Shown in pieces: positions 2,718-54,375 of a stretch of 64,000 bases of DNA. Every line of letters begins with the position of its first letter. The stretch's first letter is position 1. Source of the stretch: Thalassotalea marina (GTDB taxonomy: Bacteria > Pseudomonadota > Gammaproteobacteria > Enterobacterales > Alteromonadaceae); NCBI RefSeq assembly GCF_014656435.1, contig NZ_BNCK01000001.1, positions 124,001 to 188,000 of the forward strand. Reading direction: 5' to 3'. The notes beneath the pieces are model-generated. The model was not told the origin of the DNA. It saw nothing but the letters and a program-made list of their open reading frames with translations, and did not search any database. The position numbers and the translations under genes are program-made.

Positions 2718-4724
2718 ATGTCTCGAAAGTTAAATGTTGTCAGTTATCTTTTATTAAGTTCATTATTGGTGCCTAGCTTTTCTGTCGCAGCGCAAGAGCA
2801 AGATTTTCCAGCCGTTTTTTTTGTTGATTTTGCGCCTCAACATGCATTGGATGTAGTGCAAAACATCCCAGGGTTTCGTGTTGATCTTGGCAAAGATGTG
2901 CGAGGTTTAGCTGGTGGTGCTGGGAATGTGTTGGTTGATGGTATACGAGTTTCAGCCAAATCTGGCGGTTTAGAAGAAGTACTAAAAAGAATTCCCTTTG
3001 CACAAATTGAAAAAGTAGTTGTAGTGCGAGGTAACCAAGGGGTTGGGGATGCCAGTAGTCAAAGTATTATTGCTAATATCATTCGTAAAAAAGTTGAAAC
3101 CACAGGGCAACTTTCTTTAAGTGTTCATCATGATGCTGGTGGTAAAACCTACCCTCAAGCTGAGGTTTCATATGCAAGCCAAATTGGCGATTGGCAAAGC
3201 AACGCTAAGTTTGATGTGTTATTGCAAGATAATGTGCAAAAAAGTCGTTATACGCAGCTTGATATGAACTTTGATGAAACATCCTCTGAAAAAGAAGATA
3301 AAAGCACAGCACTTAACGAAATATTTGCCTCTGCTGATTTATCGAAACAACAAGGTGATGAGAGTCTTCAGCTGACCATGCGTGCAGGTAAAAGCCAATA
3401 TCGCCCAGCATTAACGCGACAACATGTTGGCGAAGACAGCCAATTTAAGAACGATAGAAATAGTATTTATCATACCGCAGAAGTTGGCGCAGATTGGCGT
3501 CGACCTTTTACTAATTGGCAGTGGCGCACTATTGGTCTTGCCGCCTTTACTCATTGGACTATTGATAGATCATCTAGTGAGTTTAATGGTATTGCAAAAA
3601 GCAGTGAGCAATATGATTTTCAGCGCAATAAATGGGAATCTATTATTCGTAATAGCTGGTTAAAAACAGAAAAAGAGCGAGCAATAGAGTTTGGTTTTGA
3701 AGTTGCTTACAACCATATCAATGTTAATACTAACTACGTGAAAACTGACGCTCAAGGTCAAACCTCTCGTGTGATATTACCGGCAGCTAATGTTGAAGTT
3801 AGTGAATTAAGAGGAGATGCTTTTTATAGCACGCAGTGGCAGTGGCAAGGTGGTTTATCCATGTCTTTGGGCTTAGCGGCTGAATATTCAAAAATTACCG
3901 CAGAAGGTGATAGCGAAAGTGACGAAGACTATCAATTTATAAAACCTTCATTTAACTTGAGTAAACAGTGGCATAAACATTGGCAATCACAACTGACCAT
4001 AGATCGCACCGTTAATCAGTTGGATTTTAAATTGTATGCGGCCCAGTCAAACGCTGATACTAATAGAGATCATGGAGGCAATACCCAACTAAATCCGGAC
4101 AGTTTTTATCAACTGGCAATAGCTAACGACTATCAGTTTACGGAACAAAGTGCCCTTAGATTAACCGCTTATTATCGTTGGTACCAAGATGTGTTAGAGC
4201 ATCAACTAAGCGCTAGTGGCGCCTCTTCGTTAGTTAACAGTGGTGATGCAAGTGCAATAGGCGGTAAAATCGTGCTAACTTATTCTACCGATGCTTATTT
4301 ACCCGGTGGTTTATTGTCAGCTACTTGGCAAACACAAACCTCCTCCCATGATGACTTGTTAACCGGAAAATCACGACGCTTAACCGGTGAAACTTACCCA
4401 GAAGCAGAGATTTCTTTTCGGCAAGATTTAGCATCTAACAACATCGCATGGGGCGTTACTGCGTTGTTAGAAGATAAAACTCGGTATTATTATGTTGATG
4501 AAGTGTCCACACAAAACACAGATATCAATTGGTTGGGGTTCGTTGAATATCGTGGTTGGCGTTATGGTAATTTGAAACTCTCATTTGAGCGCTTGGGTGA
4601 TTATCATAGCGATGAAAATAGAGCGTTTTATCTCCCTGATCGCACAGGTGAGGCACACGCTTATACTCATATTAAAAAGGTAGAACAAACGCTGGCCAGT
4701 TTGACATTTAATACCAGCTTTTAA
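2718..4724 (+). CDS. TonB-dependent receptor-like outer-membrane protein, probably Zur-regulated
   Basis: 668 residues from ATG 2718, which has GGTGGTGAG seven bases upstream. The signal peptide runs to about residue 25 (SFSVAA). The plug domain is short: GFRVDLGKDVRG, VLVDGIRV and IEKVVVVRGNQGV correspond to the usual plug motifs. The rest is beta-strand-rich barrel, ending TLASLTFNTSF with terminal F. No TonB box was recognised. A Zur-like box lies just upstream, so a role in zinc or zinc-ligand uptake is inferred. Neighbours give no further clue: a divergent receptor on one side and a convergent HD-GYP gene on the other. Confidence 0.8.
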   Translation: MSRKLNVVSYLLLSSLLVPSFSVAAQEQDFPAVFFVDFAPQHALDVVQNIPGFRVDLGKDVRGLAGGAGNVLVDGIRVSAKSGGLEEVLKRIPFAQIEKVVVVRGNQGVGDASSQSIIANIIRKKVETTGQLSLSVHHDAGGKTYPQAEVSYASQIGDWQSNAKFDVLLQDNVQKSRYTQLDMNFDETSSEKEDKSTALNEIFASADLSKQQGDESLQLTMRAGKSQYRPALTRQHVGEDSQFKNDRNSIYHTAEVGADWRRPFTNWQWRTIGLAAFTHWTIDRSSSEFNGIAKSSEQYDFQRNKWESIIRNSWLKTEKERAIEFGFEVAYNHINVNTNYVKTDAQGQTSRVILPAANVEVSELRGDAFYSTQWQWQGGLSMSLGLAAEYSKITAEGDSESDEDYQFIKPSFNLSKQWHKHWQSQLTIDRTVNQLDFKLYAAQSNADTNRDHGGNTQLNPDSFYQLAIANDYQFTEQSALRLTAYYRWYQDVLEHQLSASGASSLVNSGDASAIGGKIVLTYSTDAYLPGGLLSATWQTQTSSHDDLLTGKSRRLTGETYPEAEISFRQDLASNNIAWGVTALLEDKTRYYYVDEVSTQNTDINWLGFVEYRGWRYGNLKLSFERLGDYHSDENRAFYLPDRTGEAHAYTHIKKVEQTLASLTFNTSF

Positions 4725-4748
4725 CTCATAACAAACAGATAATGGCTT

Positions 4749-4784
4749 ATACCAATTCGATTCCATATTTAATCGAGTTGGTAT
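4749..4784. terminator. Inverted repeat between convergent genes
   Basis: ATACCAATTCGATT (4749-4762) pairs with AATCGAGTTGGTAT (4771-4784), 14 bp with a single G-U pair and an 8-base loop. It lies between the convergent receptor and HD-GYP genes, so it could end transcription from both sides. There is no strong T run. It could equally be a dispersed palindromic repeat; this window contains only the one copy I noticed. Confidence 0.5.
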
Positions 4785-4799
4785 TATTCAGCTAGGCCA

Positions 4800-5909
4800 T
4801 TAATCTTGATGCTGTTTAATAATCGACAGTATTTGCTGCTGCTGCGCGGCAAGTGCATCAACACAGTTAATATCTATTTTACCCAGCTCGACCATGCGAT
4901 ATAACTCGTCAAAGGCATCTTGCAGCGACCAAGCATGTTTGTATGGGCGGGACGAAGTTAAGGCATCAAAAATATCAGCGACAGTTACCATGCGAGCTTC
5001 CAAACTTATTTCATCACCTGAAAGCTGTCTCGGGTAACCAGAGCCGTCTAAAAATTCGTGGTGTTGGCCAATAACATTAATGATTAATTTACTGTTGATA
5101 CAATCATTTAAGCAAAGGCTATGTAAAATTCGTTCTGCAATGTGTTCACCTTTTTCCACATGAGATTGCATATTTTGCCATTCTTGCTGATCAAGCTTAC
5201 CTGGCTTCAGTAATATACTGTCTGGAATGCCTATTTTTCCAATATCGTGCAATGGTGCGGCGCGATATACTCGTTCAATGTATTCATCGGTTAATTGATA
5301 TTTTTCAGCTAACTGGTTGGCAATGAGTTGAGTATAAAGTGCCATTCGCTCTAAATGTGCGCCCGTTTCAAAATCGCGCAAATGTATAAATTCGTTAGCT
5401 ACTTCTGTAGATGCGGTAATTGAGCGAATCGCATCAAATTCTAAAGCTAACGCCATCGCAATAAGATTGCTGATCAGCAGTAGCTCTTTTTGTAGTTGAA
5501 GATCAAACACATCACATTGGTCGGCATCAAAAAACAGTACACCAATAAATTCGCCACGATTATATAGTGGCACCGTATATGACGATCTATAGCCTTGCTC
5601 CAACAACCATTGGCTATGGGTTGCTTTGTTGCTTAACGTTTCTTGAATATTTTCAATCAGCCTAGGTTCTGCTGATTCTGCGATTTTGCTCAACGAAGGG
5701 CTGTCACTTAATTTAAATTGATAATGCGTTAAGGCATGGCCTTGATGCGTGCTGTGAATGTAAGTTTTTAACAAGTCAGTTTTATTGTCGTAAAGTGCAA
5801 AGGCAACCCTTGATAATGCTGGCGCTACTGAAAGTGCACGCTGATGTAATGAGTGCAAGCGCTGAGTTAGGTTGTTACCTAGAGAAGCTAAAGAGTTTGC
5901 TACAGTCAT
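4800..5909 (-). CDS. GAF-like plus HD-GYP domain cyclic-di-GMP phosphodiesterase
   Basis: 369 residues. The first ~155 look like a GAF-type sensor (SSYTVPLYNRGEFIGVLFFD is the typical core). The HD-GYP domain follows: HDIGKIGIP at about 220-228 supplies the metal-binding HD, HHEFLDGSGYP at about 284-294 contains the GYP signature, and DIFDALTSSRPYK is the usual downstream motif. All catalytic motifs are intact, so hydrolysis of cyclic-di-GMP in the cytoplasm is expected, gated by an unknown GAF ligand. No membrane segments. Stand-alone gene, convergent with the receptor gene. Confidence 0.9.
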   Translation of the reverse strand: MTVANSLASLGNNLTQRLHSLHQRALSVAPALSRVAFALYDNKTDLLKTYIHSTHQGHALTHYQFKLSDSPSLSKIAESAEPRLIENIQETLSNKATHSQWLLEQGYRSSYTVPLYNRGEFIGVLFFDADQCDVFDLQLQKELLLISNLIAMALALEFDAIRSITASTEVANEFIHLRDFETGAHLERMALYTQLIANQLAEKYQLTDEYIERVYRAAPLHDIGKIGIPDSILLKPGKLDQQEWQNMQSHVEKGEHIAERILHSLCLNDCINSKLIINVIGQHHEFLDGSGYPRQLSGDEISLEARMVTVADIFDALTSSRPYKHAWSLQDAFDELYRMVELGKIDINCVDALAAQQQQILSIIKQHQD

Positions 5910-5982
5910 ATCATTCCTTTTTGACGACTTATGTTAAAAAAATATAGGCTAGTGAGGATTACCTTGTAAAGTAACTGCTGGA

Positions 5983-6426
5983 TTAAATACCTGCTTTAAT
6001 TTGGCAGTGTAGATGCATCTCTACCAAACGATGTTGTGCAACCTTGCCGGCCTCACCATGATAAACAAAACCAAATTTTTCATAGTAGGGCTGCAGGTAA
6101 TAATGCGCATTAATTTTAATGACATGAAAATTATGTGTTTGAGCATAATCTACTAACATTTGGATAAGAGGAGTTGCCAGTTTTAACCCTCGATAACTTG
6201 GTAACACAGCAATACGCGATATGACCGCTATATTTTCGGTTTTAGGGGTTAAGCGTGCGGTCGCAATAGGCTTTGCGCAATCATAAAGTACAACGTGGAT
6301 TGAAGTTTGATCTAAGCCATCGAGATCATCCTCAGCTGAAATGCCTTGTTCTACTACAAATACTTGATGACGAATTTGTTGCCCTTGGCTAATGAGCTCG
6401 CTAGATTGTCCTAGTTTTGATTCCAT
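5983..6426 (-). CDS. GNAT family N-acetyltransferase (ElaA-like)
   Basis: 147 residues from ATG 6426. A GTG two codons earlier is possible, but AGGA lies 9 bases before this ATG and only 3 before the GTG. The N-terminus (IRHQVFVVEQGI) is typical of the ElaA/YjcF branch of GNAT acetyltransferases, and ISRIAVLPSYRGLKLATPLI is the acetyl-CoA-binding motif A. PYYEKFGFVYHGE is the usual C-terminal substrate-side motif. The acceptor is unknown. It lies in a run of four minus-strand genes but is separated from both neighbours. Confidence 0.85.
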   Translation of the reverse strand: MESKLGQSSELISQGQQIRHQVFVVEQGISAEDDLDGLDQTSIHVVLYDCAKPIATARLTPKTENIAVISRIAVLPSYRGLKLATPLIQMLVDYAQTHNFHVIKINAHYYLQPYYEKFGFVYHGEAGKVAQHRLVEMHLHCQIKAGI

Positions 6427-6520
6427 ATGCACACATCCTGTTAACGCGTTGCCATACTAGCGTTTAAAAATAGCGTGTGATAGTCGTCTAGATCAAGTTA
6501 TGCTTATTTAATTGGTAAAC

Positions 6521-7024
6521 TTATCGTTTGCTATTTTTTATTAGAGCGTAAACGTGTTCGTCACAATATTGCTCGTTTTGGTAAACGGCCATTTTGTGAA
6601 TACCTTCTAAGTTAAATCCTGCCTTTTGCATTACCCTTATCGAGGCGTGATTGGGCGAAGAGACTGGATTGTAAATTCGGAATACGGAGGTTTCACTAAA
6701 GACTAAATCACAAAACTTAGTTACGGCCTTTGTCGCAATGCCCTTTTGCCAAAATTCAGGGGCTAACCAATAACCCAGTTCCGCTGCATGGGCATATTCA
6801 TTTTGCTTAAGGTAAATACCAATGACTCCACAAAAATGGCCATGATAAGTAATGGCTTGTACCATGGCATTTTCCTGACTACCTGTCTCAATAAACCATT
6901 TCGCATCTTCATTAGAATATGGGCGTGGGATTTGGCTAGAAAGATATTGTGTGACAAGGTTATTATTTAACGCCGTGACTAAATGTTGTTGGTCGTTTAA
7001 ATCAAGTGGTCGAAATATAATCAT
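6521..7024 (-). CDS. GNAT family N-acetyltransferase (RimJ/RimL-like)
   Basis: 167 residues. ELGYWLAPEFWQKGIATKA is the acetyl-CoA-binding motif A, and NHASIRVMQKAGFNLEG is the diagnostic C-terminal stretch of the RimJ/RimL group, whose members acetylate protein N-termini or small amines and antibiotics. Substrate not predictable. It lies 21 bases downstream of the TetR-family gene stop on the same strand and could be co-transcribed with it. No strong Shine-Dalgarno precedes the ATG. Confidence 0.85.
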   Translation of the reverse strand: MIIFRPLDLNDQQHLVTALNNNLVTQYLSSQIPRPYSNEDAKWFIETGSQENAMVQAITYHGHFCGVIGIYLKQNEYAHAAELGYWLAPEFWQKGIATKAVTKFCDLVFSETSVFRIYNPVSSPNHASIRVMQKAGFNLEGIHKMAVYQNEQYCDEHVYALIKNSKR

Positions 7025-7045
7025 AAATAACGCTTATTTAACCGA

Positions 7046-7630
7046 TTAACGACAAACATCTTCAAATAGCTGGTTTGCTAGATAACACATGGTCTCAGAT
7101 TCTGGATGAGTGTGGGCATAGCTTCTTAAGCCATAAATCCCCATCACTAAGCTTTGTGCTCTTTGCAGCGGCGATCTCGCATTGTTAAGCTCACCTAATT
7201 GTTGTGCTTTTGCAAACATATCAACAAAACCCTGCTGCCAATCTAGCATGTTATTTGAAATATACTGCTCAACCAAAGGTTCTTGCTGTGCCAATTCATT
7301 CAGTGCCTTTTGTGATAAACAGACTTTCTCTGTACCACCTTGCGTGCAAGCAGTTACCGTATCTTCAAGATAATGTTTTAACCCGGTTAATACACTACTT
7401 TGGTTATCAAAATATTGCTTAAATTCATCGGCTTTATCTTTGTTGTATTGCTCAATCGCTGCAAGCAACAAGCCTTGCTTATTTTCAAATGCACAGTAAA
7501 TAGAGCCAGGGTGTAAGCCTGTCGCTTGTTTTAAGTCTTGCATACTTGTTTTGGTGTAGCCCTTCACCATAAAAGCTTTGATAGCTGCCCTTAACACTTG
7601 TTCACGGTTGAACTCTGCACTGCGCATCAT
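7046..7630 (-). CDS. TetR/AcrR family transcriptional repressor (NemR-like)
   Basis: 194 residues from ATG 7630; the adjacent ATG 7627 is equally good and the frame is open nine codons further to 7657. The N-terminal helix-turn-helix (about residues 15-60, TKTSMQDLKQATGLHPGSIY) is classic TetR. The C-terminal ligand domain has cysteines (TACTQGG, EKVCLSQ) that could sense electrophiles, as known for NemR. It is divergent from an Old Yellow Enzyme gene, the same arrangement as nemR-nemA, and three palindromic operators fill the intergenic space. Repression of itself and the reductase is inferred. Confidence 0.85.
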   Translation of the reverse strand: MMRSAEFNREQVLRAAIKAFMVKGYTKTSMQDLKQATGLHPGSIYCAFENKQGLLLAAIEQYNKDKADEFKQYFDNQSSVLTGLKHYLEDTVTACTQGGTEKVCLSQKALNELAQQEPLVEQYISNNMLDWQQGFVDMFAKAQQLGELNNARSPLQRAQSLVMGIYGLRSYAHTHPESETMCYLANQLFEDVCR

Positions 7631-12029: not shown

Positions 12030-12584
12030 TTGACAGTTAAATCCGTTTTATTTGCCGTAATTTGTGCAAGTTTTACCAGTACCGCCAGTGCTGATCTCAA
12101 TCCTAAAAACTGGCGTTATGCGACCGATCCACACGGTAGTAAAGCGATTTACGACAAGCCATTAGTTAACGATGAATTTGTGGCAATTTCTTTTGTACGT
12201 GTACCCAGAGTTGATAAAGAAAATAACTCTTGGGTAGAGCTGATTTACGACCTACCAAATCAATCACTTAAGGATGCAATGCAAATTGAACTCACATACC
12301 AGAGTGATAAACCGCTAGTGATAAAGTTGTCACAAAAGCAATATGGTGGTGAGGGGGATGGCAGTTATGCGCATTATCAAACGATATTGCCTAAGGCTGA
12401 CAACTGGCGCACACAAACCGTTAGCTTAGAAAGCTTTAGCCGACCTGATTGGACGCCGGCTTGGTCAAAAGATAAAGGTATTATCAAAGACAGTGTTTCT
12501 GCTCTTTACTTTGTACCGGATTTAAAAGATGAACAAGGTGGTGATGCCTTAATCAAAATAAAACATCTTTCTTTGATGAACTGA
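12030..12584 (+). CDS. Small secreted protein of unknown function, beta-sandwich-like
   Basis: I start this at TTG 12030 because TAAGGA lies seven bases upstream and the product then begins with a clean signal peptide ending TSTASA (residue 21), giving 184 residues. An in-frame TTG at 12000 has no ribosome-binding site. The mature part (NSWVELIYDLPN, WRTQTVSLESFSRPDW, ALYFVPDL, IKIKHLSLMN) has the alternating pattern of a galactose-binding-like jelly roll, as in carbohydrate-binding or CIA30-type domains, but no family was recognised. The neighbouring genes give no functional clue. Confidence 0.7.
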   Translation: MTVKSVLFAVICASFTSTASADLNPKNWRYATDPHGSKAIYDKPLVNDEFVAISFVRVPRVDKENNSWVELIYDLPNQSLKDAMQIELTYQSDKPLVIKLSQKQYGGEGDGSYAHYQTILPKADNWRTQTVSLESFSRPDWTPAWSKDKGIIKDSVSALYFVPDLKDEQGGDALIKIKHLSLMN

Positions 12585-12796
12585 TAGCTGTTGATTCAAA
12601 TCACCACACTTTATATGTTGTTTTTTCTTGTAGCTATTTCAATTGGAGTTAGCTGCTAGTGTGATATTAAAAAACTTGCTGTGCAAAGGTAGCAGCATTT
12701 ATGGCTTTAGTTTTATCGGGCGATTGAGCAAAAGACCTCCGCTAATGCACTAAAGCCAATGTTGACCATATCATTTGGGTACTTTTGAGCAAAATA

Positions 12797-12827
12797 AAAG
12801 GCCAAAGTGGCAGTCACTTTAGCCTTT
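12797..12827. terminator. Bidirectional terminator between convergent genes
   Basis: AAAGGCCAAAGTG (12797-12809) pairs with CACTTTAGCCTTT (12815-12827) with one mismatch and a 5-base loop; the right side continues into a T run and the left side is preceded by A-rich sequence. It lies between the secreted-protein gene and rsgA. Confidence 0.75.
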
Positions 12828-12857
12828 TTAATCATTTATTCAATCGTTTTTATTAAC

Positions 12858-20218: not shown

Positions 20219-22204
20219 ATGAAATTTAACCTATTATTTCTCGCCATTATCTCTGGAGTAACGTCTTCTCATGCTTCAGCAGAAACGGGAGCAGACACTA
20301 AAATTCGTATTGGTGAAATAATTGAAGTAACGGGGCACAGCAAAAAGCAGTTATCCCCAGAAGTTGTTGGTTCAGTTGATGTTATTGGTCGTGATCAACT
20401 TGAAAATGAACATGTCAACATCACTATGGACTTATTTAAAAAAGTACCAGGTGTATATTTTTCCCGCTTTAATCAAGGCGTAGTGTCAGCAGATATCGCT
20501 ATTCGAGGCTTTAACGGTGAAGGCTCTTTGCCACATACTAAACTGCTAATTGATGGTGTTCCTTCAAACTTACACAATGGCTTAAGTGAGATGGATGCAC
20601 TGTTTCCACTGGAAATCAGCCAAGTGGAAGTGGTGAAAGGTACCAATGACCCGCGTTATGGCTTACACAACTTAGCGGGAAATTATCATATGACATCTCG
20701 TCGAGATGTTGATGTTAACCAAGTTGAACTGCTATTGGGAAGTTTTAATACCAAAGAAGCTCAAGCCTATGTTTCGAGAGAATCTGGAGATTTTTCTCAA
20801 CATTATTTTGCTGGGGTTCGCCAAACTGATGGTTATCGCGATCAAGCGGAATTAGACAAACATACGTTTTCAGGTAAATGGTTTTATCAGGCCAGTGAAA
20901 ACACAGAGATCGGAGTTATTGCTCGTTATTTTAATTATGACGCTCAAGCACCAGGTTATTTGACGCGTGAAGAAGCACGTAAAAATCCAGAGCAATCAGC
21001 TGAATATGCCAGTGATGACGAAGGCACTAAAACGACAAAACACTTAAGTTTACATGTTGATCATAACTTTAGTGATGACAACGCGTTGTCACTAAAGATA
21101 TACCGCCAACAATTTGAGCGTGAACGATTTGTGCGTTTCACCGCTTCAGCTTCTCAGCAAGAGCGCCAAGAAGATGAAAAGCAATGGGGCGTGATTGTAC
21201 AACATGGTTATCAAATTAATGATGAATGGTTGATGCAAAGTGGATTTGATTACCACGCACAAGATAATCGTCATCAACGTTTTAAAACCGTAAATAAAAA
21301 GCGCACCGCCGCCACCCGTGACCATGATTTTGAATTCATCAACTACGGTGCTTTTACTCAAATTGAACATAAGTTTTCTGACAAGTTAACCTGGATCGCA
21401 GGTGTTCGCGCCGATAAATTTGACGGCGACTTTGTTGATGTTATCAGTACCAGTAAACGTGATATTCACGATTATGATGTCATTGTGCAGCCTAAATTCA
21501 GTGTAATTGCTGAGCCTAATGAACAAGTTACATTTTTTGCTAACTGGGGCGAAAGCTTCCAAACAGGTATTGGTAAAGGTGCTTATGCTGCGCCAGGTAC
21601 TAACTTTGACGTGTCTAAAAACACAGGGTGGGAGTTTGGCACAAAATGGCAACCAACTAGTGAACTTACTTTACGATTATCGTCATGGCAACAAGATGCC
21701 AGCGATGAGTTAGTGATGAAAACAGATGGCAGTGGTGATTTTGGCAACATTGGTGAAACTGAGCGTAAAGGCTGGGATTTTGCGTTTCAATGGTCGGCGA
21801 CAAAAAATACCTATGTGTGGGGTTCGTATACTGACCAGCAGGCAAAGTTAACTGAGCCAGGTGGTAATCAACAGCTGCAAAAAGGCAGTTGGCTACGCAG
21901 CGTACCGGATTACACCGCATCGTTTGGTATCGATCACTATCTAACTTCCAACCTCAAAGGTTCAGTGTATGGCAGCTACCAAGGTAATTCTCATATCAGT
22001 GATACCAATACTTATGGCAAATTTGGGCAATATTCATTGATTGATTTAGCGCTCGATTATCAAGCTGACTGGGGCAATATTGGCCTGAGAATAAGCAACC
22101 TATTTGATCGTTATTATGAATACGTTTATCTGCTAGGCGAGGAAGCTATTTACTCTCCAGGTGATGGTAGAGCGATCAATGTTTCATGGTCTTATCAGTT
22201 TTAA
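20219..22204 (+). CDS. TonB-dependent receptor inside an ABC transporter operon
   Basis: 661 residues from ATG 20219, which gives a clean signal peptide (MKFNLLFLAIISG to SHASA). Earlier in-frame codons would overlap the ATPase gene. The plug domain (about 35-160) has IGEIIEVTGHSKK, a TonB-box-like start, then IAIRGFNGEG, LLIDGVPSN and VEVVKGTNDPRYGL. The barrel ends with ISNLFDRYYEYVYLLGEE and terminal F (SWSYQF). The barrel holds several aspartate/histidine-rich loops that could contact metal. Its place between an ATPase and permeases in one Zur-type operon suggests uptake of a zinc-containing ligand, but the ligand is unknown. Confidence 0.85.
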   Translation: MKFNLLFLAIISGVTSSHASAETGADTKIRIGEIIEVTGHSKKQLSPEVVGSVDVIGRDQLENEHVNITMDLFKKVPGVYFSRFNQGVVSADIAIRGFNGEGSLPHTKLLIDGVPSNLHNGLSEMDALFPLEISQVEVVKGTNDPRYGLHNLAGNYHMTSRRDVDVNQVELLLGSFNTKEAQAYVSRESGDFSQHYFAGVRQTDGYRDQAELDKHTFSGKWFYQASENTEIGVIARYFNYDAQAPGYLTREEARKNPEQSAEYASDDEGTKTTKHLSLHVDHNFSDDNALSLKIYRQQFERERFVRFTASASQQERQEDEKQWGVIVQHGYQINDEWLMQSGFDYHAQDNRHQRFKTVNKKRTAATRDHDFEFINYGAFTQIEHKFSDKLTWIAGVRADKFDGDFVDVISTSKRDIHDYDVIVQPKFSVIAEPNEQVTFFANWGESFQTGIGKGAYAAPGTNFDVSKNTGWEFGTKWQPTSELTLRLSSWQQDASDELVMKTDGSGDFGNIGETERKGWDFAFQWSATKNTYVWGSYTDQQAKLTEPGGNQQLQKGSWLRSVPDYTASFGIDHYLTSNLKGSVYGSYQGNSHISDTNTYGKFGQYSLIDLALDYQADWGNIGLRISNLFDRYYEYVYLLGEEAIYSPGDGRAINVSWSYQF

Positions 22205-50140: not shown

Positions 50141-50191
50141 CACTTTGAGCAAGAGTAAATTCCAATATATAGCCTTATTAAACTTCACAAC

Positions 50192-50716
50192 GTGATCAAT
50201 GAGCATGGTCAGGTTTATAGAAAATGGACTATTCCAGCAGCTTACACTAGGAACAATGTTGAACGTGTTATAGAAGCACCTGAAATTTATTGTCAGGCAT
50301 TAGAAAAGTATCTTGAATGGTACGTCAAACAACCAATACCTGATGAATACAGGCACAACCGAAATACGCATCTAGGCATTAACGAAGAAGCACCAGTGTT
50401 ATTAAATGATAGGCTTTATAAATTTGCAATGAGTGAACGCAAAGTTAAAGACGGTATTAATAAGCAGCCTACCAATTTAAGAACAAAAGTTAATAAACTT
50501 TTAGCTAAGGCTAGTTTAGATTGGACTACACCTAAAACGTTCTATGACAGCCTCATTGTTAATCTGGCGCGTAATAATGCAGATATAGGACAAATAGTCG
50601 ATGCGTTTGGCTTGAGTTCTCGACAAGTTGTTTTAGATAAAGTAAACGGAAGTCTACTTGGATTAAGTGACGCTATTAACCAAGTGTATTCAAGAATCAA
50701 AGTCACAGGACACTAA
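50192..50716 (+). pseudogene. 5'-truncated, degenerate tyrosine-recombinase-like protein
   Basis: 174 residues from GTG 50192; the frame is open back to 50159, where protein-like sequence begins right at the inverted junction motif. The layout resembles the C-terminal half of a phage-type integrase: NEHGQVYRKWTIPAAYTRNN like the catalytic-domain hairpin, then TPKTFYDSLIVNLARNNADI followed by IVDAFGLSS in the place of the usual HxLR...G-H block. The N-terminal half with the first catalytic arginine is missing, and the expected HxxR and tyrosine are absent. It may be a decayed integrase or a non-catalytic derivative. Assignment is from pattern only. Confidence 0.55.
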
Positions 50717-50722
50717 ATTAAT

Positions 50723-51115
50723 ATGGAAGAATTGAAAGTACTACAACCCTATTTATGGAGTTTTGCCTGTCTATTATTTGGTTATCTTTTGGGTAACAGG
50801 TTCGCTTTAAATAGAGATAAGCGCAAGGAATACAATGACGCGGTAATACCTTTAAGGGAACGTCTGATTACTAGTGCATTTGTTAATAAAAACATTATTG
50901 ATAATTTAAAAATTAAATTAGGTGATAAAGCTAACAAAATAGTAGGTGCATACGAAAACGAATATTTGCCAGCATGGAAATTGCGTACAGATAATGGTGG
51001 ATATGATGATAGAGGAAACGTGCAACCTCCAATTGACGAAAACGTTATTAACGGCAACATTGAAAAGCAAAAACAAGCTAAAGAAAACCTCCTTAACTTA
51101 TGTAAGTTAAGGTGA
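50723..51115 (+). CDS. Unknown protein with one N-terminal membrane helix
   Basis: 130 residues starting six bases after the recombinase-like stop. A membrane helix (about 10-28, WSFACLLFGYLLGNRF) is followed by a charged, probably helical region and a ~35-residue asparagine-rich stretch. No family recognised. Close spacing suggests co-transcription with the previous frame. The upstream sequence AATATGGAA resembles a shortened junction motif. Confidence 0.6.
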   Translation: MEELKVLQPYLWSFACLLFGYLLGNRFALNRDKRKEYNDAVIPLRERLITSAFVNKNIIDNLKIKLGDKANKIVGAYENEYLPAWKLRTDNGGYDDRGNVQPPIDENVINGNIEKQKQAKENLLNLCKLR

Positions 51116-51152
51116 TTTTTGAAAACATCGAATTTAAGTCGCAAGGTATAAA

Positions 51153-51362
51153 ATGACACACAGCAAAACCAAAACAAGCCTATATAGGCGGGGTTATGTT
51201 ACTTGGCTCATTAGTACAGGGGTTAACACTGTACCTGCAATTAAAGAAGCCACAGGTATGCCACGAAGAACTGCACAAGATACTTTAGCCGCAATACCAG
51301 AGCGTCTATTGTCCTTGAAAACAAAGGTGGTTAATACGCAGTTGTTGAATGGGGAATGCTAA
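51153..51362 (+). CDS. Small helix-turn-helix protein (DUF977-like)
   Basis: 69 residues. RRGYVTWLISTGVNTVPAIK followed by EATGMPRRTAQDTLAAIP is a winged helix-turn-helix of the DUF977 kind, found on mobile elements of Vibrio, Pseudoalteromonas and relatives. A DNA-binding regulator of the element is the likely role. SD-like AAGG precedes the ATG by about seven bases. Confidence 0.7.
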   Translation: MTHSKTKTSLYRRGYVTWLISTGVNTVPAIKEATGMPRRTAQDTLAAIPERLLSLKTKVVNTQLLNGEC

Positions 51363-51446
51363 ATAAAATTGGTTAAAAAACAACCGGTGGTACGTCAAAG
51401 CCGTGCTTTTATATCCCTAGATTAAATGAATATTGGATTACAAACT

Positions 51447-51659
51447 ATGGCTTTAAGTGAAAAGAGATTGACTGCTAGACATTCTGCTTTAACAGATGCA
51501 GCGGCAATGATTGCAAGTCATGATGCTGGTACTTTGGAGAGTGATCCTGAGTTTTATAAGATGTTAATGGAAGAACGCAGAAAAGTAGCTGTTTTTCTCG
51601 AAAATAAAGCTAAAAAGCTTGTTGGAAATCGAAAGCTTTTAGACTTTGAATGCGATTAA
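51447..51659 (+). CDS. Small soluble protein of unknown function
   Basis: 70 residues from ATG 51447. An ATG at 51426 is in frame but the junction motif (51433-51439) would then be coding. Predicted almost wholly helical, with alanine-rich and charged helices (SALTDAAAMIASHDAG, MLMEERRKVAVFLENKAKK). No family recognised. Confidence 0.55.
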   Translation: MALSEKRLTARHSALTDAAAMIASHDAGTLESDPEFYKMLMEERRKVAVFLENKAKKLVGNRKLLDFECD

Positions 51660-51692
51660 TTAATCATATTGGAATGCAAGGAAATAACTTGA

Positions 51693-52148
51693 ATGCGACT
51701 TTCCCATAAAAAAAAACTAAGCAATAAAAATTCCTATTTTGAACGGAGATTTAAGTTCAAAAATTGTCATTTACTTATTTTTAAGTCTGACGGGAGTACT
51801 GAATATAAATTTGTTAATTTTGAACTCAAATCACATCGAGTCAATATAAATGAGAAAGTTGAGGAAGTTGTTTGCGCCTCAGAAATTTCACCAGATTTAA
51901 TTATAGCTGCTTTGTCGGCTGCAACTGGTCTGGGCAGTTTTGTATATGCAAAACGTTCTTTTGATAAATCAGAAAGATGTAAATTTAGAAGCCCGACACG
52001 CAAAACACTCTGTAATAGTTTAATAGTTCACCATGAGGTGGTCCAAGTTGATGAAAAGTCATGCTTGATTAGAGTTTGTAAAAAAAACCATAAGACTATA
52101 TCTAAAATTTCCAACTCAAAAATAGAGCAACAAGTTAAAATCAAATGA
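51693..52148 (+). CDS. Unknown basic protein with a single hydrophobic segment
   Basis: 151 residues, start supported by AAGGAA upstream. Lysine-rich N-terminus, then strand-like sequence (CHLLIFKSDGSTEYKFVNFE), a hydrophobic stretch at about 68-90 (LIIAALSAATGLGSFVYAK) and a basic tail with four cysteines. No family recognised. Preceded by a TTGGAAT motif nine bases after the previous stop. Confidence 0.5.
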   Translation: MRLSHKKKLSNKNSYFERRFKFKNCHLLIFKSDGSTEYKFVNFELKSHRVNINEKVEEVVCASEISPDLIIAALSAATGLGSFVYAKRSFDKSERCKFRSPTRKTLCNSLIVHHEVVQVDEKSCLIRVCKKNHKTISKISNSKIEQQVKIK

Positions 52149-52241
52149 TATTTAGTATAAAAATATATGGCGTTGGAATACAGAAGTTTTTGAAAAACGA
52201 AATGGTGACAAAGACCATTGCAGCAAAGGAAAGAGGTTAAA

Positions 52242-52958
52242 ATGTTGATTGCAAAAATAGAAAAAATACTCGAAAAGGTTAACTCCAGTCAAATCGCTAT
52301 TTTTGCAGTTCTTTTCATTACATTTGTTACGGGAGTAATAGCGGTTAAGAATGAATATTACTCTGACTCAAATTGGTTTGAAGGCACCTGGCAACTAGAT
52401 CCGAACAGGTCATATCAAAGCATCAATGATGAGCTCAAAACGCAAATTAGTGAAATGGAACTTAAACGAGAATATCTTGAACCTTTCTTTGAAGGGCATC
52501 CTGAATCCTCTAAATTGGTAAAAGGGCTATTAGTCTATAAAGGTAACGCTCAAAAAAGGTGGGAACTCTTTTTTGATAATATTTCGTTAACAGTAAATTT
52601 CGGAAATAGTTACGGTTTTTTTGAGACCAATTTACCACCAATAGAGAGGACAACTGTTAACTCGTCTATCCACTCGCTTTCCTATCGAAATAAAATGTTC
52701 GATTTTGATATTGAACGCATTGTTCGGAATAATAATGAAGAATTGATCTTAAAACCCTTACGCCAAAGACAGATTAAGACAGTCAATTCGGATGGTAAAT
52801 TAATAGAGCAAGAGAGAGCTTTTCAAAACTCGATCGCCTTTAAAAGCGGGGAATATTTAATAATCGACATGCCGCTTTTCAGTTTTTCCGAGGTAAGAGG
52901 CACAAATGCGAGCAATAAGGTAATAAGAGGGGCGCTTTATTTTCGTAAAATTGAGTGA
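52242..52958 (+). CDS. Unknown protein with an N-terminal membrane anchor
   Basis: 238 residues from ATG 52242, with GAGG six bases upstream; a TTG at 52218 lacks this support. A membrane helix at about 20-38 (IAIFAVLFITFVTGVIA) anchors a ~195-residue extracytoplasmic domain rich in beta-strand pattern (WFEGTWQLDPNRSYQSI, then a lipocalin-like alternation, ending VIRGALYFRKIE). The opening WFEGTW and closing strand suggest a small barrel such as those in lipocalin-like proteins, but no family was recognised. A TTGGAAT motif follows its stop with no gap. Confidence 0.6.
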   Translation: MLIAKIEKILEKVNSSQIAIFAVLFITFVTGVIAVKNEYYSDSNWFEGTWQLDPNRSYQSINDELKTQISEMELKREYLEPFFEGHPESSKLVKGLLVYKGNAQKRWELFFDNISLTVNFGNSYGFFETNLPPIERTTVNSSIHSLSYRNKMFDFDIERIVRNNNEELILKPLRQRQIKTVNSDGKLIEQERAFQNSIAFKSGEYLIIDMPLFSFSEVRGTNASNKVIRGALYFRKIE

Positions 52959-53025
52959 TTGGAATGCACAAAATTAAAAAATTTCGCGACATTTGCTGCA
53001 ACATTTAAAGGGCATTAATTTATAA

Positions 53026-53607
53026 ATGGAAAATCAATCGAATAGGTTTTACATCATTCTTTGCATCATGCTTGTACTTTCTGGCTATCTCATTGCTCAA
53101 ATGACAAATATTGGGGAAGCGTGGAATAAGAATTTTGACGTTAGCGACTATCTAACACTTTTAGTTGCTGCTATAACCTTCTGTTTTGCCTACCTAGGAG
53201 TAAAGCATAACAGCGATCAACGCACTCTTTCTGTAATGCCTTATGTAGAAAAAACAAGTATGGGTGATCAAATACAGGGTAAATGTGGATTACTTATAAA
53301 GAATTATGGAATGGCTCCTGCCATTAATATGAAACACACGATGTCACTTGATGGCAAGCCGTGCAACCTAATAACTTTTGATGAAATGCACAGAGAAATA
53401 TTTAACGAGGACGTAGATATTCATACACATAGAGCTTGAATTGTAGCGTTATCTCCTAATGAGTCAGGGTACTTAATAGAGTTTTCGGTATCTAGTAGGA
53501 ATGAAAGTAAATACATCAAAGCAAAAGGCTTTTTACAACGTATTACCATTATTACGGAATATGAGTCTATTTTAGGCCAAAAATTTACTAAAGAGTTTAA
53601 ATATTAA
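53026..53607 (+). pseudogene. Unknown membrane protein interrupted by an in-frame TGA
   Basis: Reading from ATG 53026 stops at TGA 53437-53439 after 137 codons. The same frame then stays open for 55 more codons to TAA 53605-53607, and that part reads like normal protein (SPNESGYLIEFSVSSRNES, then AKGFLQRITIITEY). The whole would be 193 codons. Two membrane helices near 8-25 and 41-62 precede a soluble C-terminal domain. A nonsense mutation is the simplest explanation; a sequencing error or leaky stop cannot be excluded. No selenocysteine hairpin is evident after the TGA. Confidence 0.65.
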
Positions 53608-53622
53608 TATTGGAATAACGTT

Positions 53623-53892
53623 ATGTGGGCGATTATTAGTACAAGTAAGAACTTAAAATTTTTTGATCTAAAAGGCACTACAGCAAAAGAAATAGAAGGT
53701 CTCAGCTATTTTGTAAAGCACAAAGGGCATGTACCAGAAATTCTGTTTGAACATAATTTTGCTGTAACAACGCTAATTGAACACGGAGTGCCTTTATTTA
53801 TCAATAAAGCCGATGCAAAAAGCGAGGCAGTGGCTTTGAATTTAACGGGGTTTAAGTACTTAAAATTAACCCCTACTATCATTAAGTTTTAG
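53623..53892 (+). CDS. Small soluble protein of unknown function
   Basis: 89 residues, no membrane helix, mixed helix/strand (MWAIISTSKNLKFFDLKG, then SYFVKHKGHVPEILFEHNF). The junction motif at 53610-53616 ends six bases before the ATG, and its GGA may double as the ribosome-binding site. No family recognised. Confidence 0.55.
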   Translation: MWAIISTSKNLKFFDLKGTTAKEIEGLSYFVKHKGHVPEILFEHNFAVTTLIEHGVPLFINKADAKSEAVALNLTGFKYLKLTPTIIKF

Positions 53893-53916
53893 TGATTGGA
53901 AAAAAGGGCTCAGTGG

Positions 53917-54312
53917 GTGGCAGTAGATAAAAGAATCAAAAAGCATGGGTTTAGTTTTATAGAAGCAACTGGACTAATGGTAGGATTAGTAATTCTTTGG
54001 TTTGTTTCTTTTTTGTTTTTTGTTTGCTTGTATCTTTCACACTCTATGTTTTCAACGGAGTCTGGCTCTTCATTATTTCAAAGAGCCGGTGGGTTGGTTG
54101 TTGTGCTAGCGGTATTTATTGAGTACGGAGTATTGAATTTGATTAACCGCTGGCTTGATAAGAACAACAATTGTGCTTCAGGTAAGACGTACCGAAAAGT
54201 ATCTTTTGTAATGCATGCAAGATTGTCATGTAAGATGGCAATTTTTATTACAGTGATTGCTGGAACTATTATATGGGCATATGGCGATCTTGTTTATTTA
54301 AAGTATTTTTAA
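53917..54312 (+). CDS. Unknown small membrane protein
   Basis: 131 residues from GTG 53917, placed about eight bases after AAAAAGGG; the TTG at 53896 would begin inside the junction motif. Three membrane helices (about 18-42, 58-77, 105-125) with a cytoplasmic basic loop RWLDKNNNCASGKTYRK between the second and third. No family recognised. Last gene of the island. Confidence 0.55.
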   Translation: MAVDKRIKKHGFSFIEATGLMVGLVILWFVSFLFFVCLYLSHSMFSTESGSSLFQRAGGLVVVLAVFIEYGVLNLINRWLDKNNNCASGKTYRKVSFVMHARLSCKMAIFITVIAGTIIWAYGDLVYLKYF

Positions 54313-54346
54313 TCTTGGAAAACGGGAGTATGTAACTTTGTTACTC

Positions 54347-54375
54347 AAAATAAGCTCCATTTTGGAGCTTATTTT
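54347..54375 (+). terminator. Rho-independent terminator after the accessory island
   Basis: AAAATAAGCTCC (54347-54358) and GGAGCTTATTTT (54364-54375) form a perfect 12-bp stem with a 5-base loop and a T-rich end. It may be the original terminator of the HDOD gene at 49298, displaced by the island. Confidence 0.85.

Follow-up and report, generated by a model that had tools for sequence, protein, structure and literature searches.

In a stretch of 64,000 nucleotides (nt) from the Thalassotalea marina genome (contig NZ_BNCK01000001.1, positions 124,001 to 188,000; hereafter the window, whose own numbering is used below), a row of small plus-strand genes at 50159–54321 is punctuated by a junction motif of the TTGGAWW type, which we call the site. 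We consider it likely that this array is the relic of an integron-like gene-cassette platform whose recombinase and site differ from those of the integron. Each unit consists of a single small gene or a toxin–antitoxin pair together with a short site, usually just behind the stop codon, and whole units recur with other neighbors, the identity often starting or stopping at the site. With less assurance, we lean toward the wider view that such arrays represent a second, independent cassette platform, built on a tyrosine recombinase of the catalytic domain only, a short direct GGAA-core site in place of a folded attC, and an inverted site some 88–109 bp upstream of the recombinase. It would be spread over gammaproteobacterial plasmids (for Burkholderia, by recombinase matches alone), its rows would reach about 50 genes, and catalytically dead paralogues would still head some arrays, perhaps as regulators.

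A motif scan confirmed what an earlier note on this DNA had reported, namely that seven direct copies of TTGGAWW lie between genes and that four of the seven are exactly TTGGAAT. All on the plus strand, they are TTGGATT at 51433–51439, which starts the first cassette; TTGGAAT at 51669–51675, 52173–52179, 52959–52965 and 53610–53616; and TTGGAAA at 53896–53902 and, as the terminal site, at 54315–54321. Five stand within nine bases of a stop codon, again as reported (distances of 9, 0, 2, 3 and 2 nt), while the copy at 52173 is 24 nt from the stop and no stop was found in range of that at 51433. The first two spaces (50716/50723 and 51115/51153) contain no copy, and two extra direct copies fall inside genes (50658 and 51622). 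Position 50159, where the array had been taken to begin, is itself an eighth copy, inverted, on the minus strand. Across the whole window, the motif was not enriched (TTGGAAT, 12 found vs. 14.6 expected; TTGGAWW, 56 vs. 59.9), nor was the pattern alone enriched in the genome, TAATTGGAAA giving 25 matches vs. 35 for the reversed control. The spaces of the array were enriched: their 592 nt contain six TTGGAA, whereas 2,000 dinucleotide shuffles gave 0.42 on average and never more than 4, the start of the last gene being approximate. The array is missing from all four same-genus genomes, in which its flanks are 89–194 bp apart.

A search of the same genome with the array DNA returned one further match, 296 nt at 95% identity, pairing window positions 53609–53904 with positions 20817–21112 of another contig, C16. 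The match is exactly one cassette, from motif to next motif, and the flanking sequences differ; it is the only window cassette located elsewhere. C16 (41 kb) is plasmid-like, with ParA, ParB and a replication protein recognized by eye, and the match lies in a longer array (~8 kb) of small plus-strand genes with many TTGGAA-like junctions. This array is headed by a gene for a 258-residue tyrosine recombinase (C16 13233–14009; Pfam PF00589, 3e-16). A serine recombinase of 207–208 residues is encoded behind the C16 array (L003 7310–7933, minus strand), and one similar to it by eye is encoded before the head gene in genome G005 (3675–4301, minus strand).

Relatives of the C16 recombinase head comparable rows in other bacteria. 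Close relatives were found in P. peptidolytica (L027), Catenovulum (L028), a viral contig (L029) and P. donghaensis (L030) and, in broken form, in Microbulbifer (L031); at the order level, 4 of 394 genomes gave a match (E 1e-20, own genome included), the surroundings of two of them (G336 and G387) lying outside the examined sample. More distant matches occurred in 157 plasmid records, 104 of them covering at least 80% of the query. Surroundings were examined for ten of the 157 (two being nearly identical Vibrio plasmids) and, in another set of ten records, for three plus the query's own. Five sampled relatives with 26–29% identity, from Vibrio diabolicus, Halomonas, Pseudomonas siliginis, Teredinibacter and Shewanella, all head rows of small codirectional, mostly hypothetical genes. 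At least four small codirectional genes follow directly behind the head gene in 11 of 13 loci at which this gene is apparently active, here called the active type (C16, L027, L029, L048, L053, L056–L060 and L065), and in all 11, the recombinase gene and the cassettes have the same orientation. The two exceptions are L030, with two such genes followed by conjugation genes, and L028, where a PIN-type pair is followed by the contig end.

The active-type proteins comprise 223–258 residues, and Pfam detects in them the catalytic domain PF00589 only (1e-7 to 2e-15 in L048 and L056–L060) and no core-binding family. Hence, they are missing the core-binding domain, which according to PMC8138268 is a usual part of simple tyrosine recombinases. 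The catalytic motifs R..E, SSHxGR, GH and Y run through ten aligned active-type proteins, L059 being without GH. Three proteins weakly matched NF007370, "tyrosine-type DNA invertase" (E 7e-7 to 6e-4), and structure predictions scored low (mean predicted local distance difference test of 40 for the active recombinase, from three sequences, and 44 for the first gene of the window array, from a single sequence). Among viral sequences, the active type was found on one viral contig only, with no match in the phage collection. This contig (L029, from IMG/VR) carries a cassette array and recombinase with phage-like genes behind, so phages or phage-plasmids may carry the system. Of two other candidates, the head gene of L063, annotated as "integrase," had no recombinase match, and that of the Alteromonas plasmid pKD01 (L054 36741–37541) matched XerC far below the cut-off (2.6e-8).

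The cassettes behind these head genes are duplicated and reshuffled. In L027 (Pseudoalteromonas), a 300-nt stretch is present twice at 100% identity, and another cassette has three copies, of which the last runs into the contig end; the repeated cassettes each start at TTGGAA and have different neighbors. Three cassettes are present twice, in changed order, in Microbulbifer L031. The first units of L027 and G005, a MazEF-like pair in both, have 678 nt in common at 80.5% identity, which ends at ...TTGGA, and this common unit stands behind head genes of different types. On the A. macleodii plasmid pKD01, 52 annotated genes, mostly small, follow one another in the same direction, and single cassettes recur in shuffled order in three other Alteromonas plasmids. 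Among matches of at least 120 nt between these plasmids, 51 of 87 match ends (each match counted in both sequences) lie within 8 nt of GGAA[ACT], compared with 10.7% of random positions. Two Vibrio loci, L056 and L067, have a common backbone and array and differ in their last genes, and a cassette common to L056 and L064 at 99.2% has its left limit at GGGAATTT. When family genomes were searched with C16 cassette DNA, two places outside the own genome were found: an array in G141 with ACGGAAA junctions, headed by a recombinase relative with degenerate catalytic residues, and a row in G005 (L099) with another repeated junction and no head in the stretch fetched. The earlier note had suggested a cassette array joined otherwise than by attC and had named, as a check, homologues in other orders with breakpoints at the motif. 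In support of that reading, this pattern appeared in the own genome, within and between arrays and in the Alteromonas plasmids, but not at every breakpoint and, as regards the window, for one cassette only.

The head gene is followed by a MazEF-like pair as first unit in L027 (10849–11443), G005 (5352–5949), L056 (6746–7353), L065 (3346–3953) and L067 (3347–3954), and L050 and L066 contain such a pair with no annotated recombinase in front. Similar PIN-type pairs, compared by eye, are the first unit behind the head genes of L028 and G141. The small-gene row of L099 (G005:C15:50000-57582, positions 4598–7583) contains one gene twice (6328 and 7413) and has one gene related to a C16 cassette; its junctions, TACTTAA/TACTTTA, are possibly another site type of the same kind.

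The consensus of 56 sites from seven arrays is (A/G)TTGGAA(A/T)A, preceded by an AT-rich stretch. Since these sites were hand-picked from motif lists as intergenic, the selection itself accounts for part of their closeness to stop codons. The right ends of common cassettes agree up to TTGGA and the left ends from TGGAA on, which would place the exchange point within about TTGGA. Other groups of arrays have the variants T(A/T/G)GGAAA, GGGGAAA, AGGAAA and ACGGAAA. An inverted counterpart stands upstream of the head genes. Within 150 bp upstream, TTCCAA was present in ten of ten heads of the TTGGAA group (one of which, L053, was assigned to the group because of this very element), compared with 5% of random windows, and in eight of the ten, it lies at −88 to −106. 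In all eight further heads, TTTCC lies at −94 to −109 (random, 1–3.5% per 25 nt). Overall, 16 of 20 heads have the inverted site 88–109 bp upstream, and in L048, L056, L065 and L100, the upstream element fits the array's own variant. The window copy at 50159–50165 (minus strand; ATTCCAA on the plus strand) is this upstream inverted element, forming the left boundary of the array. In general, the upstream inverted site may be the platform's own attachment site or an operator.

The recombinase family heading such arrays, and the probably decayed, orphan state of the window array, lay outside the view of the earlier note. The first gene of the window array (50159–50716, plus strand; the listed open reading frame starts with GTG at 50192) is a 5′-truncated recombinase relative without the catalytic residues. 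It is homologous to proteins of 224–236 residues that head arrays in G137, G217 and G005 (57–69% identity), together designated type B, and more distant type B array heads with about 24% identity occur in Marinobacter pSMR5 and Alteromonas pKD01. The gene itself had no Pfam, NCBIfam or significant PHROG match and none in viral contigs, and BLASTP gave nothing between it and the C16 recombinase. A profile–profile comparison of the type B alignment with the active recombinases gave a probability of 97.2 (E 4.6e-11), and the type B relative L041 has a weak match to PF00589, below the cut-off. The aligned type B relatives have other residues in place of Arg I, His and Tyr; in the window gene, His and Tyr are replaced as well, and the part carrying Arg I is absent. 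To the right of the copy at 50159, the head gene has lost about 40 codons together with the region upstream of it. A shorter stretch is gone at the same relative place in L027 when compared with C16 by eye.

Because its first gene is a 5′-truncated recombinase relative without catalytic residues, the window array is probably an inactive, sedentary relic; besides the truncated head gene, an internal TGA in one cassette gene is a sign of decay. The catalytically dead type may be a regulator or a remnant; the relatives of the window gene are intact and conserved across genera, so that the dead type may have a function. A further head gene with degenerate catalytic residues lies at 4178–4819 of L100 (G141) on a 6.7-Mb contig, with a PIN-type pair behind it similar to that of L028.

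We propose that the short tyrosine recombinase encoded at the head would act on pairs of sites in direct orientation; by recombination between them, a cassette could leave, conceivably as a circle, and enter the same or another array. No attC folding would be involved, and the asymmetry of the site would keep most genes in one direction. As the window head is a truncated paralogue without catalytic residues, the window array would move only if a recombinase such as that of C16 acted in trans. The cassette common to the window and C16 suggests that such trans action has happened.

Other explanations of the arrays were weighed. It is unlikely that the cassettes are real but moved by another enzyme, such as a small serine recombinase or host Xer, with the short tyrosine recombinase serving, for example, in plasmid dimer resolution. 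This possibility draws on the serine recombinases beside the C16 array and before the G005 head, on an annotated "recombinase family protein" near the L062 arrays and in L060, and on the form ATT-GG-AAT, which is symmetric in the manner of sites that have a 2-bp core. However, only some of the 56 sites preserve this symmetry, a tyrosine recombinase heads the array in 11 of the 13 loci, and no serine recombinase was noticed beside most other arrays in the stretches fetched, although no dedicated search was made.

More improbable is that we are dealing with an orphaned piece of a classical integron, i.e., a cluster of attC sites lacking integron integrases (CALIN), moved by IntI. In favor of this, the genome has two classical IntI genes over the cut-off (G000:C15:46865-47812 and G000:C4:47793-48740), IntI occurs in 41 of 59 family genomes, and the gene content of the arrays is integron-like. 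However, no IntI was seen beside the arrays in the stretches fetched, and the ten head recombinases tested (C16, L027, L029, L048, L056–L060 and L065, leaving out L028, L030 and L053) are not IntI, scoring at most 32.7 bits for the IntI model TIGR02249 (cut-off, 265), while the genome's own two score 438 and 454. The 56 junctions also folded no better than random windows from the same arrays (mean z of −0.01 and −0.47, with 7% and 14% below −2), and GTTRRRY overlapped the motif in 2 of 56. No attC-like folding was thus detected, in line with the earlier note, but the positive control was weak, which counts in favor of the IntI alternative: in the genome's own IntI array, full gaps gave z below −2 in one of seven, GTTRRRY was found in none of the seven gaps, and there were two attC-like candidates overall. 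The best window fell below −2 in five of these seven gaps, a best-of-several figure that is not a like-for-like comparison.

We regard as slightly less probable again that the rows are ordinary operons with a common ribosome-binding or regulatory motif behind each stop codon. In favor are the short spaces, the common direction of the genes, the operon-like look of the L053 row and a likeness of GGAA to part of a ribosome-binding sequence, which is greater in the distant arrays. Conversely, at 12 junctions (hand-chosen, five of the seven in the window and 7 of the 20 C16 sites, with one start approximate), the motif lies 0–24 nt behind the stop codon vs. 9–69 nt before the next start, and operons would not account for the duplication and reshuffling of cassettes. 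Least probable of all is a reshuffling in which no dedicated enzyme takes part and short stretches of identity recombine homologously or illegitimately, to which the small size of the sites (just ~7–10 bp), the match ends off the motif and the Vibrio change at L056 8461 lend something, but against which breakpoints cluster at one asymmetric site in several genera, the arrays are headed by one recombinase family, and order changes while direction is kept.

A number of observations weigh against a dedicated cassette platform. The 56 sites have no inverted partner arm, and a tyrosine recombinase acting on double-stranded DNA normally needs a second, inverted arm. The breakpoints do not always follow the site: 36 of the 87 Alteromonas match ends, in a count that takes each match in both sequences, are away from the motif, and the right limit of the Vibrio L056/L064 cassette (L056 8461), where L056 and L067 diverge too, is at no GGAA motif. 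Of 13 cassette-DNA matches in plasmids, five were examined, three being in arrays (L048, L050 and L052) and two not (L049 and L051). In the distant arrays, GGAAA is found near start codons, where it may serve in ribosome binding, and in the L053 row, a TTGGAA junction is found in one of seven gaps, most genes almost touching. The upstream element of L057–L060 matches only the GGAAA core, and none was found in L041 and L042. Both types are rare in the family, the active one occurring in 2 of 295 genomes (E 1e-12) and type B in 5 of 295, own genome included in each case; the type B match in G154 is at a contig end, where its surroundings could not be judged. Finally, a likely real minus-strand gene lies inside the L027 array (12552–12830). 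Its protein resembles one encoded on the plus strand of L029 (8704–8994), and these opposite strands suggest that orientation is not strict.

The remaining features of the window array are all on the plus strand. Behind the head gene, two genes have no motif before them, one for a protein of 130 residues without known function (50723–51115) and one for a small winged-helix protein (51153–51362; HTH_43, Pfam PF09904, 3e-16), a relative of which sits behind the type B gene of G137. Six cassette genes follow. The first lies at 51447–51659 (ATG at 51447 chosen; longest open reading frame from 51426), the second at 51693–52148 (151 residues, unknown), and the third at 52242–52958 (238 residues from ATG 52242, unknown; longest open reading frame from 52218). 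The fourth, at 53026–53607, is probably decayed: a TGA at 53437–53439, read by eye, interrupts its continuous frame, of which 53026–53439 is only the first part. The fifth (53623–53892, 89 residues) is the gene with a second copy on C16, and the sixth (53903–54312) has an uncertain start codon, the listed open reading frame starting with TTG at 53896, inside the site. The description of these genes as small, unknown and unidirectional was therefore borne out, except that the HTH_43 protein has a Pfam match and that 53026–53439 is not a complete gene. No other array protein gave a Pfam match over the cut-off, and PADLOC returned nothing better than E 0.02. Directly behind the array lies a terminator-like element (54347–54375), a perfect inverted repeat of 13 nt with TTTT at the end of its 3′ arm.

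The proposed platform resembles the integron in its single-gene unidirectional cassettes, its tyrosine recombinase at the head, its toxin–antitoxin cassettes and a shuffling whose breakpoints lie near a site at the 3′ end of the gene, the 36 of 87 ends elsewhere notwithstanding. In contrast to the integron, its recombinase is not IntI and is without the core-binding domain, and the recombinase gene is codirectional with the cassettes, whereas the integron integrase gene is divergent from them, with attI between. Its site is a short motif without detected attC folding, in spaces often of tens of bases, whereas attC sites are imperfect palindromes with RYYYAAC/GTTRRRY ends. In dif modules (pdif, on Acinetobacter plasmids), sites alternate in orientation, host XerC/XerD act, and there is no recombinase of their own, whereas the junction sites here, looked for on the plus strand, are direct and a recombinase stands at the array head; dif/Xer sites themselves lay outside the search. 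A likeness to dif modules is that small gene modules, often toxin–antitoxin, are bounded by short sites and exchanged between plasmids. With the short tyrosine DNA invertases, which we take to be of the FimB/FimE type, the recombinase shares its catalytic-domain-only build and the weak NF007370 match, but its sites are direct and lie in a gene array; invertible promoters were outside the search. Related papers, among them PMC8138268, PMC9892861, PMC5217437 and PMC4119200, deal with IntI integrons, dif modules and general plasmid genomics. No description of such a platform was found in searches of the open-licence literature, subscription papers and preprints being outside this scope, so an earlier description is possible.

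The integron is seen as the chief means by which bacteria capture gene cassettes, and the tools that detect it seek IntI and attC. If the reading proposed here is true, a platform without IntI and attC would be invisible to these tools, and as a result, its store of small mobile genes, carried by marine and environmental plasmids, would mostly have been annotated as hypothetical proteins. It would also suggest that cassettes may be captured without the need for folded single-stranded sites, and it would offer a minimal recombinase–site pair to study.

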